A DNA stretch of 42,577 nucleotides from a virus. The DNA lies in IMG/VR virus record IMGVR_UViG_3300044470_000215, positions 1-42,577 of that record, one strand, 5' to 3'. The first letter of the stretch is position 1. Each line of letters starts with the position of its first letter. The notes under the pieces were generated by a model. That model had not been told where the DNA came from and ran no database searches. It worked only from the letters and a program-made list of their open reading frames with translations. Below are positions 3,055-19,309 of this stretch, in pieces. Both the position numbers and the translations under genes were made by a program.

Positions 3055-5304
3055 TCAGGGGGCCGTGAAGGTGCCCGTTGCGACAAGCATTGAATCGGAC
3101 GAGGGGCGCGGGAAATAGGATGGGCCAGAGACCCATCCGGCGGGGTAATCGGTACCGGGAATCCAGTCGGCGGGGATGGCTTGGGCGGCGATGAAGCCGA
3201 AGGTTGGAGATGTGCCTGAACCGTCAGGATCGGAGACATAAAGAGCAATTGGCGAGCCCGCAGGAATGCCAGAAACGGTGAAACCTGGATAGGCAGTCGG
3301 GCCGACAATGCCCATCACCTGGACAGAAAGATCGGGGATTGCAATCGTCAGGTTGCCGTCACCGGCAACATCGGCCGAGATGGCAAGCGTCGCACGCAGC
3401 ACCCAGGCAGGAGATATAACCGAAGGAAAGCCGGTGAGGGGGAGAGAGCTGTTGGGCACCTTCATATAGTAGCTGCCGGGATCGTCGCTGACATCGGTGT
3501 AGGCATCGCGGTTGTAGGCATGAATGGTGAGGTCGATCTGCCCGAGCGAAGAGTCAGAGGGAGTAGAAATCTCCATCTCCTCAACTAAATAATCACCAGG
3601 CGCTTCGGGGTAGAGCCAACTATCGAGTGTGATGACATCTTTGGGCCGCACCTTCTCAATCAGCGCAGCACCATTCACATCGACAACCTCTGGATATAAA
3701 GAGAGTGAGCCAGCGATCGGAGCGTGCCATCCAGGGCCAATATCGGTGCCGAGACTACTATCGCGCTCGAACTTCATGAGTCGGTTTGTTTGGTCGAAGA
3801 TGGAATTTCCACAGTCATAGATAACACGCCGAATTATCGGCTGCTGTAGAAGACCGGGAGCCTGGCGCGGAACCATGTGCCGCGCAGAAAGATGCTGTAC
3901 GTTCCGAGGGGTGCGCGAAGAGAAGCGAGCATCGTCGGAACCAAGATAGCCGCCCGTTGCATTTACGATCGGTGAACCCTCTGGGTCAGTGTTAGCGGAA
4001 TAAGTGTTATTCGGAAAATCGGCTCCCTCGGGGTATGGATCGCCATCGACAACCCAGACTGGATAGACCCCGTCGAGCGAAGGGTCGCTGGAACCGCCGT
4101 AGGTCAGATAAGACGAATTGGAAAACGGACTCGGCGTTGAGCAGTTGAAGGTGCTCATTCCGAAGGCTTCGCCGTCGCGGAAGCTCCACATCCCATTGCG
4201 TGTATAACTGTTGACCTTGCAGACGGCCGGCATGTCCAGATCGCGATAGCTTGGGACAAATAGGTTGGGCGCTTTAGAAACATCTTTTTTATCCAGTTTC
4301 AAGGAGCCGGAAACAAGGTGTTTCGCGGAAGCAATAAATACCGAGGCGCGGGCGTCATCGCCAATCAGATATATTTTCCCCGCGTCGATGCGCTGATAAC
4401 CGCGATCGACGCGGCACATTGTTTCCATCATGCTTGTGAGCGAAGCATCCGAGGCGAAAATATAGCTGCCCACAAAGCGCGGGTTGCCGTTGGGCAAAAT
4501 ATAGTCGTTACGAGCTGCCAGCTCGCAGATGGAAGGCCAGTCGAAGCAGGCTTTTTCAGCGTCCGTCAATCCAGAGAGAGGCGGCTGTTGCGGGCGAATT
4601 TTACAACGAAGCAACGCTTCTACTTTGTGCCATGCCGGGTTGCAGGTAAAACCATAACTCACGACGTTGCCATAGCCGTCGAATATTCTACAACGCGTCG
4701 TGCGCCAGACGGCCGATCCACTGATAGTCTGGCCGGAAGGTACGCCGCGAGCATAGGATGGAGCGCCCGGAATGGCGAAGATCACGTAGGAGATACCGCT
4801 GAAAGACTGAGGCGGAGTTACTGTCGGGAATTGGGAGAACCATTCGTCGTAGCCTTGATCGGGGCCATAGGACTGCGATGAGTTCGCGGGGACCAATCCT
4901 GTGACTGGATCGAGAACAGGGATTGCCGTGCCGATGGGCGTATAGCGTCCAGCATGGAAGTGGAGAGATGGCTGGCCCCACTGAAAGCCCGGATAGTCGT
5001 ACCAGGTGGCCAGCGTGTGGGTGTTGTAATAAATCCCAGAAGTGTAGGTCTGCGAGTTCGGGACCACCCTCTTAGCCCAGACCATATGTGGCGGAATCGC
5101 AGTCTGCGAGCCGACGGCCGCGACCGGGAAGGTGCTCATCATTTCGAAGCCATCCCACTCACCCTCGCCGAGCAAGCGACCAGAGAATTGTGAGCCGTCG
5201 ATCGCGACTGTCGAAAGCACCTCATCACCCGACCCCATGATATAGCCGAAGGCAAGCGGCAGCTTGCGCGTGCTCTGGCTGGCGAATGCGGGGTTTAGTG
5301 GCAT
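3055..5304 (-). CDS. Tail tip/baseplate protein (large, C-terminal receptor-facing part likely)
   Basis: A 749-residue protein at the 3' end of the late operon, where transposable siphophages encode the tail-tip complex. The N-terminus (PLAFGYIMGSGDEVLSTV, then GEGEWDGFE) resembles the start of tail-tip/hub proteins that follow tape measure and hub genes. The last ~130 residues are strand-rich with Pro/Gly/Ser turns (LYVSDPDGSG), fitting an exposed host-contact domain. It is joined to the upstream gene by a 1-base TGATG overlap, so it is co-translated with it. No enzyme motif was recognised. Assignment rests mainly on size and position. Confidence 0.65.
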   Translation of the reverse strand: MPLNPAFASQSTRKLPLAFGYIMGSGDEVLSTVAIDGSQFSGRLLGEGEWDGFEMMSTFPVAAVGSQTAIPPHMVWAKRVVPNSQTYTSGIYYNTHTLATWYDYPGFQWGQPSLHFHAGRYTPIGTAIPVLDPVTGLVPANSSQSYGPDQGYDEWFSQFPTVTPPQSFSGISYVIFAIPGAPSYARGVPSGQTISGSAVWRTTRCRIFDGYGNVVSYGFTCNPAWHKVEALLRCKIRPQQPPLSGLTDAEKACFDWPSICELAARNDYILPNGNPRFVGSYIFASDASLTSMMETMCRVDRGYQRIDAGKIYLIGDDARASVFIASAKHLVSGSLKLDKKDVSKAPNLFVPSYRDLDMPAVCKVNSYTRNGMWSFRDGEAFGMSTFNCSTPSPFSNSSYLTYGGSSDPSLDGVYPVWVVDGDPYPEGADFPNNTYSANTDPEGSPIVNATGGYLGSDDARFSSRTPRNVQHLSARHMVPRQAPGLLQQPIIRRVIYDCGNSIFDQTNRLMKFERDSSLGTDIGPGWHAPIAGSLSLYPEVVDVNGAALIEKVRPKDVITLDSWLYPEAPGDYLVEEMEISTPSDSSLGQIDLTIHAYNRDAYTDVSDDPGSYYMKVPNSSLPLTGFPSVISPAWVLRATLAISADVAGDGNLTIAIPDLSVQVMGIVGPTAYPGFTVSGIPAGSPIALYVSDPDGSGTSPTFGFIAAQAIPADWIPGTDYPAGWVSGPSYFPRPSSDSMLVATGTFTAP

Positions 5305-6506
5305 CAGAATGTCCTCGCGGGGTTATAGAAGACGGCGGGCGCTGGCTGCGCATACTGGACATTCGGGCATTCCTGGTCCCACTGGGTCACAACACCCGCG
5401 AAGCGATTTATGGAGCTGCATCCACCGTAGGTGAGGTCGCAGGGCGTGGGAGAAGTAGAGCCACATGCAACCGACCCGAAGGTGAGCGGGCAGGTCACGT
5501 CGATGTCGTAGGCTGGCGCAGCCACGTCGCTGAAGTTGCCGAAGCCTTCCAGCGTGAGCTGCATCCGGCTCTCATCTATTTCTGCTGCTGCGACCGTACC
5601 AATAAAGGTAAAGCACGACGACTCCGCGTCGCCGCGCCAGAGTCGGCAGACTACCAGCGCGCCGATAAACTCATTCTGACTCCAGGCTGTTGCCACGTCG
5701 CGCGTGACCGTATTTCCAGAGATGTTCTGCACGGCAAGAGATGCGGTATCGGTCTGCGTGCTTCCAAACAACGTAAATTTCGGCTGACCTACAACCCAAT
5801 CCAAAAATTGCTCAGGAATTCCGGTGAGTATCGATGGCCAGATGCATTTATGCTCCGACCAGAAGTAACTGTTGCCGGATGCCGTCTCGACTTCAACGAG
5901 AAGGACTGGGGCGCAACCGCCGCTCGCCGCCAGGGGAATAAAAGTCGATCCGGTGGAGGAGCCAGAGCCAGGCAGAGGGGAAATTGTGATGGAGAGGTTT
6001 GCAGAGGCCGTAAACCCGGCCGAATCGGTGACCGTCAGGGTGAAGGCAGACGAACCCGCGATGATCGGAGTGCCACTCAATATGCCTGTCGCCGCATCGA
6101 GAGAAAAGCCAGAAGGCAGAACTCCTGAGGTCACCGTAAAGCTATAAGGAGCAGCTCCACCAGATGCACTTACAGTTTGGCTGTAGGGCGTCCCAATCGA
6201 ACCGCTGTTGGCGATAGAACTGTTGAGTAGAAGACCATCGTAAACGACGAGTGAACATTCAACGGCGTCGGGAGCTATAAAAGGGGGGCGCAAAAATGTG
6301 ATCGTAAATAGGTAAGTCCCTGCGACCGTGGGAGTGCCACTTAGCAAACCATGTGTATCATCAGGGCAATAATCGGAGAGAATAAGTCCAGGGGGGAGAG
6401 ACCCGGCGGTGACTGATTCAGTCACGGAGTAGCCCTCCGTTGTGCGCATCCCAAACTCATAGGAATAAAGGGCGCCAACCAGAGCGGGAGTGAGAATGAG
6501 GGGCAT
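5304..6506 (-). CDS. Tail hub protein (BR0599-like C-terminus) with N-terminal putative-Ig repeats
   Basis: Start at the ATG at 6506 (TGATG overlap with the upstream gene), giving 400 residues. Residues about 10-90 and 95-175 are two copies of the putative-Ig ('He_PIG') repeat, marked by SLPPGLILS...GLLSGTPTVAGTY and APYSFTVTSGVLPSGFSL...GILSGTP. The rest resembles the DUF2163/phage BR0599 hub family, with a Cys-rich end (CGSTSPTPCDL, YGGCSS, then NRFAGVV). The family's usual role is a hub protein below the tape measure. The Ig repeats are common in Acidobacteriota surface proteins and may have been gained for host binding. A longer frame upstream lies inside the preceding gene and is rejected. 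Confidence 0.7.
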   Translation of the reverse strand: MPLILTPALVGALYSYEFGMRTTEGYSVTESVTAGSLPPGLILSDYCPDDTHGLLSGTPTVAGTYLFTITFLRPPFIAPDAVECSLVVYDGLLLNSSIANSGSIGTPYSQTVSASGGAAPYSFTVTSGVLPSGFSLDAATGILSGTPIIAGSSAFTLTVTDSAGFTASANLSITISPLPGSGSSTGSTFIPLAASGGCAPVLLVEVETASGNSYFWSEHKCIWPSILTGIPEQFLDWVVGQPKFTLFGSTQTDTASLAVQNISGNTVTRDVATAWSQNEFIGALVVCRLWRGDAESSCFTFIGTVAAAEIDESRMQLTLEGFGNFSDVAAPAYDIDVTCPLTFGSVACGSTSPTPCDLTYGGCSSINRFAGVVTQWDQECPNVQYAQPAPAVFYNPARTF

Positions 6507-16369: not shown

Positions 16370-18790
16370 TTAGCCGGCGACGACGTTCTTCTGCACGCCG
16401 CGGTAGTCGATGATGGCGCCGCCGAAGACGTGCTTCACCTTGTACTGCAGCTGGTCGTTGGTGAACTGCGTTCCGACGACGGGGTTGTTGGCCAGGAATA
16501 TCTGCGGCTGCTCCAGACCGTCGAGGAAACCGATCTCAAGGAACGGCGCGTTCGCCTGGTTGGTACCGCCGTAGAAGTCGTTGTCGTCGGTCAGCATTTC
16601 GTTGACGATGATGCGTTCGTTGTTGTCGCCGAAGCGGTGGAAGAAGGTGTTCGCGCCGGCGGTGTTGGTCTGGTTGATTTGGATTGCCAGCGCCTTCACC
16701 TGGATCGGCACCATCAACCAGTCCAGCGTGAGCCCGAGCTGCTCGCCCGAGTCCTTCTCCGTCTGCTGGAAGAGTGCGATCTCCAAAGCGATCAACGCGT
16801 CCTGGCTCAGCGCAGCCGAGCCGAGGTTTCCGTGTGCCGCGTTGAACCAGGTCACGCCATCCGCCATATAGGCCGGGTTGTTGAGGAAGTAGTTGGTGAT
16901 GAACCGCTTCAGCGTCTTACGTCCGGCACGCGCCAGGCGAGTGGGGAAGCGAGCAATCGCGCCGAGATCGTCGTTGCGGATCGTCTGCTCGGAGATCGTG
17001 AGCAGGTTGCCATAGTTGCCGACCGCGTAGTTCACGCGCTCATCCGTGGGCTTCACGATCTCGGTATACGGTGCGCCTTCGGCCACCACCGCCAGCTCCG
17101 GGAAGTACCCGTCGCGGACCCGGTCCTGCAGCTTGTAGCTGTCGATGTTGGCCTTTTGATACAGGACGTCCAGGCCGTCGATGCCCAGCTCGGCGTAGTC
17201 CTGCAACAGCCGCTTGGTCATCGAGTTCAACAGCAGGTTGGGGAAGTCCGTGGTGGACACCGCTTCCGAAACGCGCGAGAAGAACGTAGCGCCGCTGGCT
17301 CGCAGCTTGGTCAGGTCGAAGTCGCCGGTGATGTGGCTGTACGCCTCGCGGATGCCATGGAAGGCGATCACGCCGCTGGTCTCGTGCCCCTTGACGCCGA
17401 GCATGCGATCCATGGCGATCTGGGCCATGTCGTGGCCATCGAGGCTGAGCGCAGCGATGCCGCTCACGCGTCCGCTGTTGTTGGCCGCGGCAAACGCTTC
17501 GCGCACCGCGGTGATCTGCAGGTCGAGATCGCCGTCCGCAATCGAGGTCATCTTCTCAAAATGGCCGCGCACTAGCTTCTTTGCAGGCTCTGGCAGCTTC
17601 GAGTCGTTCAGCTTCGCCTCCATCACATTGACGAACTGCAGCTTCTTCGCCTCTGCAAGGGTCGCATTCGCGGCGGTCTGCGCAGCGGTCGATGCAGCGG
17701 TGGTCGCGGTCGAGAGAGCTTCCGTGACGCGCGTGAAGATGTCCTCATACTTCTCTTCGGCTGCGGTGTTCAGCTCCGTCTGGAACGCGGTTGCGCTGGT
17801 CGCGTCCTGAGTACGCAAAGCCTCGATCACGCGCAGAATCATTTGCTTGTTTTTCATCTGGTCCTCCCGGACTTGGGCATTGTTGTGTCGGACCAGGTGG
17901 GCCGACGAACCTTGTTTGACCGCGGCCAACTGGGCCGCCGCGATCTCACCACTCGCGTCGGCCGAGGCGGCCACGCGCATCTCTTGCAGAAAACGTCCGC
18001 CCGCACCGGCCTCGCCAACCAGGTCGATGGAATAGAGCTTGCCGAGCTTCTTGGCTTCGAGGCACTTCTTGCCTTCGACGGTCGCCGGCGCGAATCCCAC
18101 CGTGGCCAGGATCGAGAGCCCGAACATATCGAGCTTGCCGGCCTTTCGCGCCGCCGCGAACTTGCCGCGCAACGCAGTCTCGCTCTCTAACAGATTGAGA
18201 TTCGCGCGGGCTTCGGAGACACTCGCTGCAACCGCACCATCGCTGAACCAGCCAGCAATGCGATCAGGATCGTTCTCTCCGTACTGGTAGCCCGGCTCGG
18301 GCTGCGGATGCCGGCGCCCGAACTTCGCAGAGTTCGCGGCCTCGGCAACCTCAGCCACAAACACCGGGGGGTAGTAGTGAGGCAGCGAGCTTCCCGCCAG
18401 AATTCCTCCGCCCCAGCCTGCCTTCAACACGCTCACCGGGTAGATCGCGTCGTTCGCGGCGTCGGAATCGGAGGCCTCCGTAACGAAGTGCCCAGCCTCC
18501 GCAACGGGCACATAGGCCGTTTCGACTTCCTGCGCGTCGGTCAGTGTGATCGCGTTCAGTTTGTCGATCGAGTAGCCGATTCGATAGAGATTGCCGCCGT
18601 TGGTGCTGCGCGCGATGACGTAATCGGTGAAGACATCCTGCACCCAGAAGCGCTGGCATCCATCGCTGTCGTTGCCGAACTGCGCCAGCAGTGCTCCGTC
18701 TAAAAGTGCGCTCCGGTCAAATAGCGACAGATCGGCCGCGGCGGCTTCCGCCACGGCCAACCAGATCAGGCGTGATTTCTGTGGGCGCAT
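16370..18790 (-). CDS. Prohead protease-scaffold-major capsid fusion protein
   Basis: 806 residues with AAGGA before the ATG. Residues ~1-290 look like a capsid maturation protease: a region around GWFSDGAV, then DMFGLSILATVGF and YSIDLVGEAGAGGRFL, close to the GLS...S-x-D-L-V core of such proteases. Residues ~312-440 are an Ala/Gln/Glu-rich helical scaffold (TTAASTAAQTAANATLAEAK). Residues ~440-806 match an HK97-fold major capsid protein (FPNLLLNSMTKRLLQDY, later FLEIGFLDGLEQPQIF). Fusions of this layout are an established phage family. Protease, scaffold and capsid are therefore made from one gene, and an internal RBS (see 17855-17868) may supply a shorter form. No separate capsid gene exists in the window. 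Confidence 0.85.
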   Translation of the reverse strand: MRPQKSRLIWLAVAEAAAADLSLFDRSALLDGALLAQFGNDSDGCQRFWVQDVFTDYVIARSTNGGNLYRIGYSIDKLNAITLTDAQEVETAYVPVAEAGHFVTEASDSDAANDAIYPVSVLKAGWGGGILAGSSLPHYYPPVFVAEVAEAANSAKFGRRHPQPEPGYQYGENDPDRIAGWFSDGAVAASVSEARANLNLLESETALRGKFAAARKAGKLDMFGLSILATVGFAPATVEGKKCLEAKKLGKLYSIDLVGEAGAGGRFLQEMRVAASADASGEIAAAQLAAVKQGSSAHLVRHNNAQVREDQMKNKQMILRVIEALRTQDATSATAFQTELNTAAEEKYEDIFTRVTEALSTATTAASTAAQTAANATLAEAKKLQFVNVMEAKLNDSKLPEPAKKLVRGHFEKMTSIADGDLDLQITAVREAFAAANNSGRVSGIAALSLDGHDMAQIAMDRMLGVKGHETSGVIAFHGIREAYSHITGDFDLTKLRASGATFFSRVSEAVSTTDFPNLLLNSMTKRLLQDYAELGIDGLDVLYQKANIDSYKLQDRVRDGYFPELAVVAEGAPYTEIVKPTDERVNYAVGNYGNLLTISEQTIRNDDLGAIARFPTRLARAGRKTLKRFITNYFLNNPAYMADGVTWFNAAHGNLGSAALSQDALIALEIALFQQTEKDSGEQLGLTLDWLMVPIQVKALAIQINQTNTAGANTFFHRFGDNNERIIVNEMLTDDNDFYGGTNQANAPFLEIGFLDGLEQPQIFLANNPVVGTQFTNDQLQYKVKHVFGGAIIDYRGVQKNVVAG
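17855..17868 (-). promoter_or_regulatory. Internal ribosome-binding site and ATG inside the capsid fusion gene
   Basis: GGGAGG (17868-17863), 5 bp spacer, then an in-frame ATG (17857-17855) at codon 312, exactly at the protease/scaffold junction (MKNKQMILR). Re-initiation here would give a 495-residue scaffold-capsid protein without the protease, as lambda C/Nu3 does in principle. Confidence 0.6.
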
Positions 18791-18797
18791 GGAATCC

Positions 18798-19199
18798 TTA
18801 TTTGGATTTGGCGGCAGCCTTCATTACCCCCGCGGTCTCCGCGATAACCGGAACAGGAGGAGGGACCGGGAAGCTGTGCTTCTTGCCGTCCGAAGTGACC
18901 ACCCGGAGATGCTCGACGCCCTGGATCACGCGCTTGCCATGGCCGATCACCTTCCAGGCATCGTCGTTCTTGGCCTGGAAATCGGAGACCATCGCTGCGG
19001 CTTCCTTGTGGCTCGTCGGTGCGTCGATGCGAAGCAGCTTGTTCGCTTCCTTGCGCGCGGCCTGCTTTTGCCCGGATTCATCGTTCGGGATGTCCACCTG
19101 CGCCTGTTTGAGCGCTGCGGTGTAGATGCCGCTCCATTTCTGCTGGAGCGCTACCGGAAGATGGGCCGGGGAAGAAGGGATTTGTAACTCGGTTGTCAT
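18798..19199 (-). CDS. ChaB-like small protein in head operon
   Basis: 133 residues from the ATG at 19199 with GAGGA 6 bp upstream; the longer frame starting at 19262 lacks a site. The N-terminal ~75 residues (LPVALQQKWSGIYTAALKQA, then KQAARKEANKLL) resemble the ChaB fold, a small helical module found in many phage head operons. The C-terminus is a short basic/Pro tail. Lies between MuF and the capsid fusion gene. Role is unknown. Confidence 0.55.
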   Translation of the reverse strand: MTTELQIPSSPAHLPVALQQKWSGIYTAALKQAQVDIPNDESGQKQAARKEANKLLRIDAPTSHKEAAAMVSDFQAKNDDAWKVIGHGKRVIQGVEHLRVVTSDGKKHSFPVPPPVPVIAETAGVMKAAAKSK

Positions 19200-19309
19200 G
19201 GCATTTCCTCGATAGACGGTAAAACGGTTTTCCGACTCCATCAGCATAGGCAAGTCAGGCAAATTCGCTGTTCAGCGTGAGCGATCCCACAAGAGCGGGA
19301 TTCCGCGTT

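Follow-up and report, generated by a model that had tools for sequence, protein, structure and literature searches.

A conserved in-frame ribosome start signal at the protease-scaffold junction of a phage protease-capsid fusion gene, with two predicted capsid subunits

The window, by which we mean the whole 42,577-nt stretch of viral DNA analysed here, carries a single open frame that combines a protease, a scaffold and an HK97-fold capsid protein, as in the single-gene fusions of the MD8/Gifsy-2 type. Residues 510-802 of the encoded protein match Phage_capsid_4 (Pfam, E 1e-34), and the protein also matches the PHROG families 'major head and protease protein' and 'head maturation protease' (PHROG 4523 and 133). 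Its neighbours encode a Mu F-like head protein, a portal and a large terminase (Pfam, PHROG). A small gene without a family match in the Pfam and PHROG scans (18798-19262) separates the Mu F-like gene from the fusion; its listed start is a TTG without a Shine-Dalgarno sequence (SD), and a downstream ATG (19200-19198) looks better. The features of the fusion are as follows.

16370..18790, minus strand: protease-scaffold-major capsid protein fusion gene, 806 aa (open frame, Pfam, PHROG)
18795..18799, minus strand: likely SD, AAGGA, of the full-length start (ATG 18790-18788), pairing energy -6.0 kcal/mol
17858..18790, minus strand: prohead-protease domain and linker, residues 1-311 (AlphaFold2, PDB and BFVD fold matches)
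17863..17868, minus strand: internal SD, GGGAGG, pairing energy -10.3 kcal/mol
17855..17857, minus strand: internal start codon ATG, Met312, in frame (column conserved in 56 related genes)
16370..17857, minus strand: predicted nested gene for a scaffold-capsid protein without protease, 495 aa (AlphaFold2, Foldseek)
16385..17263, minus strand: major capsid domain, HK97-fold and Mu gpT-like, residues 510-802 (Pfam, profile matches)

Of central concern is the internal site, which reads 5' to 3' on the minus strand GTCC-GGGAGG-ACCAG-ATG-AAAAACAAG (surrounding sequence: GTCCGGGAGGACCAGATGAAAAAC), with a spacer of 5 nt between GGGAGG (17868-17863) and ATG (17857-17855). The earlier note had placed a near-ideal SD and an in-frame ATG at 17855-17868, and its coordinates are exact. 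Scored as pairing energy with the 16S tail, which is only a proxy for initiation, the internal SD comes out strongest among the 33 window gene starts that were scored, and within the fusion gene it outscores the full-length SD (-10.3 vs. -6.0 kcal/mol).

The note had also put the site exactly at the junction of protease and scaffold, and here the structure models bear it out. The AlphaFold2 model of residues 1-311, for which 40 sequences from the window and the loci were used (pLDDT 79.5), presents a prohead protease and, after it, a disordered linker; in the PDB it best matches gp21, the capsid assembly protease of T4 (probability 0.99, E 3.6e-3, with low whole-chain TM-scores), and among the predicted viral structures of BFVD it matches a capsid maturation protease (E 6e-10). 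Only this fold comparison was informative for the protease, its sequence profile having found nothing credible in the PDB, and the Pfam and PHROGs scans of the fusion protein gave no ClpP match. Ser226 and Asp256 are invariant in all 40 sequences, each of which also has a His near residue 161, and on this pattern His161, Ser226 and Asp256 are a plausible candidate catalytic set. Residues 312-806 (pLDDT 83.9) are modelled as helices from residue 2 of the short product onward and then an HK97 fold; Foldseek matches this 495-aa model to the capsids of HK97, D3 and SaPI1 with E down to 8e-10, and a sequence profile finds the Mu capsid protein (9jod, E 9e-5) as its nearest solved capsid, along with GpT-domain proteins. 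The models thus support a protease, then a helical scaffold and an HK97-fold capsid protein, and, taken together, put the internal ATG past the protease and its disordered linker and ahead of the first scaffold helix.

Some 60 genes related to the fusion came from scans of IMG/VR, nearly all of them a single open frame from protease through capsid; a scan of genome contigs found none. The comparison at the junction column covers 56 related genes, among which L029 repeats the sequence of L018 and L012 is Microcystis phage Mae-JY22. In 55 of the 56, a start codon lies within 4 residues of the junction together with an SD of -5.4 or lower, against a mean of 7.7% elsewhere along the gene. The analysis selects the best-scoring start in a span of a few residues, and its cut was chosen with the data in view; at the stricter cut of -7 the figures are 39/56 and 2.3%. 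The earlier note had named loss of the site from related fusions as one finding that would count against it, and what is found is near-universal retention. Mean SD energy is -8.1 at the junction vs. -2.7 for the 746 other in-frame ATGs, about 1.5% of which reach -8 (Mann-Whitney p 1e-29, this and the p-values below being too small because the relatives share ancestry and are not phylogenetically independent). Apparent matches just upstream of the junction column proved to be the same sites displaced by alignment gaps. The exceptions are L067, with a weak SD, and L064, which is without the site; the fusion in L064 (1901-3754, a 618-aa frame) is also without most of the scaffold region. L050, where a capsid protein of the same family is encoded alone (4462-5796) beside small unrelated genes, was considered as a case in which the fusion is split and the capsid has its own gene, and rejected: no protease gene adjoins its capsid gene, so it is uninformative, and the locus is possibly a rearranged prophage.

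What is conserved appears to be a start rather than a stretch of peptide. Three genes (L043, L049 and L062) have GTG in place of ATG at the junction, with strong SDs, so it is the start codon that is kept and not methionine. The SD cores at the junction fall in all three codon phases (17/26/22) and are encoded by differing peptides, such as EED, KGA, QGG and NGA. Set against synonymous shuffles of these same peptides, the actual codon choice yields stronger SDs (-8.0 vs. -6.0; p 1e-9 by the Wilcoxon test); when the per-gene p-values are combined, the result is weaker, at 4e-4. In a middle group of 15 genes at 44-50% identity, the two windows of strongest synonymous constraint in the whole gene flank the junction, at alignment columns -13 to -2 and +12 to +24, while the five closest relatives alone show no such peak at the junction and have theirs elsewhere, mostly in the capsid domain. 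The GTG replacements, the three SD phases, the codon choice and the constraint in this sub-group together indicate, at the level of sequence, selection on translation initiation and not on a peptide motif. The downstream window of the middle group (L020-L035, L074, L078), strongly constrained at synonymous sites, is the GAGGCGCTCCGG stretch beyond the internal start.

The site in the sequence, its deep conservation and the layout of the domains around it are directly observed, and from them we would put at roughly 0.88 the probability that this one gene makes two capsid subunits, one of 806 aa with the protease and one of 495 aa without it. Translation of both products, their ratio, their co-assembly and the cleavage steps are the inferred part of this reading. 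Ribosomes starting at 18790 would make the protease-scaffold-capsid protein, and those starting at the internal GGGAGG and ATG the scaffold-capsid protein, which would be the bulk subunit, much like HK97 gp5 with its delta domain; since the internal SD is the stronger, the short form should predominate. Long subunits, the minority, would join the procapsid by means of the scaffold and capsid domains that both forms have, bringing the protease inside; there it would remove the scaffold and itself. A protease on every subunit would mean hundreds per head, one for each subunit; the nested start would let a minority of subunits deliver it.

The earlier note had gone further in proposing that the phage can probably tune the ratio of the two forms. 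Two forms from one gene are favored by the 55/56 conservation and the evidence for selected initiation; the tuning fared less well. Possible pairing elements do flank the SD, a CTGGTCC...GGACCAG dyad common to the window and L003, and GGAGC upstream with GCTCC downstream in the middle group. Folding of 32 genes against synonymous shuffles gave no support for a regulatory hairpin that sequesters the SD, with SD accessibility not reduced and structure not in excess. As no regulatory RNA structure was found, the ratio may be fixed by the strengths of the two starts instead of being adjusted, and tuning beyond their relative strength is unsupported. A 35-nt block before the linker (window 17886-17920, GTCAAACAAGGTTCGTCGGCCCACCTGGTCCGACA) is identical at synonymous sites in L003 and nearly so in L014. 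It is quite possible, though we do not lean that way, that the short protein is translated in an untuned ratio, either because initiation strength is simply fixed or because protease copies are in excess and not limiting, which would be compatible with the two-subunit model. The folding result agrees with such a reading, as does the finding that, among relatives, the strength of the internal SD varies independently of that of the full-length SD, but the fact that almost every relative keeps the site suggests that the balance does matter.

Two other explanations for the site were considered. The SD-like stretch might be a translational pause that lets the protease fold before the capsid domain is made, an idea to which its position at a domain boundary of a long fusion lends some appeal. 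A pause requires no start codon, yet in 56/56 relatives one follows the SD at initiation spacing (4-12 nt) at the junction column, GTG included, and we regard this explanation as very improbable. Still harder to credit is a relic of a recent two-gene fusion kept by inertia: many phages encode protease and scaffold-capsid in separate genes, and gene fusion is the likely origin here, but the site is kept in relatives down to about 25% identity, with unrelated and poorly conserved linkers that differ in length by tens of residues while the start stays at the first scaffold helix in essentially all of them, and codon choice still favors the SD.

The two-subunit arrangement has several known counterparts, none quite the same. 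Herpesvirus UL26/UL26.5 makes nested, co-terminal protease-scaffold and scaffold products, and is alike in having forms with and without the protease; it differs in using separate transcripts, made in a eukaryote, and in having an unfused capsid protein. In lambda, with its ClpP-type protease, the nested product is scaffold only and the major capsid protein is a separate gene. The likeness to lambda C/Nu3 is an internal in-frame start within the protease gene that yields a protease-free scaffold; the difference is that the nested product of our phage continues into the capsid domain. The start in the lambda capsid-protease gene goes back to Shaw and Murialdo (1980), as cited in PMC8508860. Phage Mu (I/Z) and Mu-like phages of P. 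aeruginosa also have an in-frame scaffold start inside the protease gene, at Val177 with SD ACGAGGA in PaMx73 (PMC4378225). The present site resembles these in being an in-frame scaffold start with an SD, and its capsid domain is Mu gpT-like, but the Mu capsid protein is a separate gene; with capsid fused in the phage here, the nested product is scaffold plus capsid. An N-terminal predicted protease fold and an in-frame SD start at the protease/scaffold boundary, as in the nested lambda/Mu type, are thus both present, and the gene departs from the plain type because its nested product runs into an HK97-fold capsid domain. HK97 gp5, with its scaffold (delta domain) fused to the N-terminus of the capsid protein (PMC10275583), has the same layout as the predicted 495-aa product; its protease is a separate upstream gene, so that HK97 needs no nested start. 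The MD8-like phages have protease, scaffold and capsid in one gene according to passages found in PMC8508860, and in these passages an internal start is not mentioned. Like the fusion here, the MD8-, F10- and Gifsy-2-like fusions combine three functions in one gene and have an SD and ATG at the junction, differing in their proteases, which are ClpP-type or other, whereas the solved fold closest to ours is T4 gp21. Searches of the open-licence literature turned up no description of an internal start in fusions of protease and capsid; what is new here is a Mu-type nested start kept in a gene that encodes the capsid protein too.

All 11 of the GenBank protease-capsid fusions, among them those of Gifsy-2, F10, Stenotrophomonas S1, RcKemmy, Psul1, Bordetella PBb002 and Escherichia LLS, have, where the protease domain ends, an in-frame ATG whose SD scores -5.3 or lower, their proteases being ClpP-type or other; a scan of this set by alignment only gives a junction start in 8/11 at the best column. 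None of the 10 annotated records marks an internal start, the Silvanigrella record carrying no annotation. It seems to us a reasonably good bet, made with less assurance than for the present gene, that tailed phages with a maturation protease of any type fused to the capsid protein generally keep a ribosome start at the junction. If so, their capsids would be built from protease-bearing and protease-free forms of the same subunit, and internal translation starts of this class would be widespread without being annotated. For the gene here and its relatives, the nested start also implies that the main capsid protein is probably mis-annotated, with a start about 310 codons too early in the present case, which would affect proteomics, structure work and gene calling in a large and mostly uncultured phage group.

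The same alignment-only scan turned up a second candidate site in 7 of the 11, this one inside the ClpP protease domain. Codon 186 of L087, codon 185 of L085 and codon 176 of L084 each combine a strong SD with an in-frame ATG within that domain, as in AAGGAGACCTGG-ATG, with pairing energies of -8.7 to -11.4 kcal/mol; this intra-protease site of the ClpP-type fusions may be a chance product of an ETWM peptide motif or another internal start.
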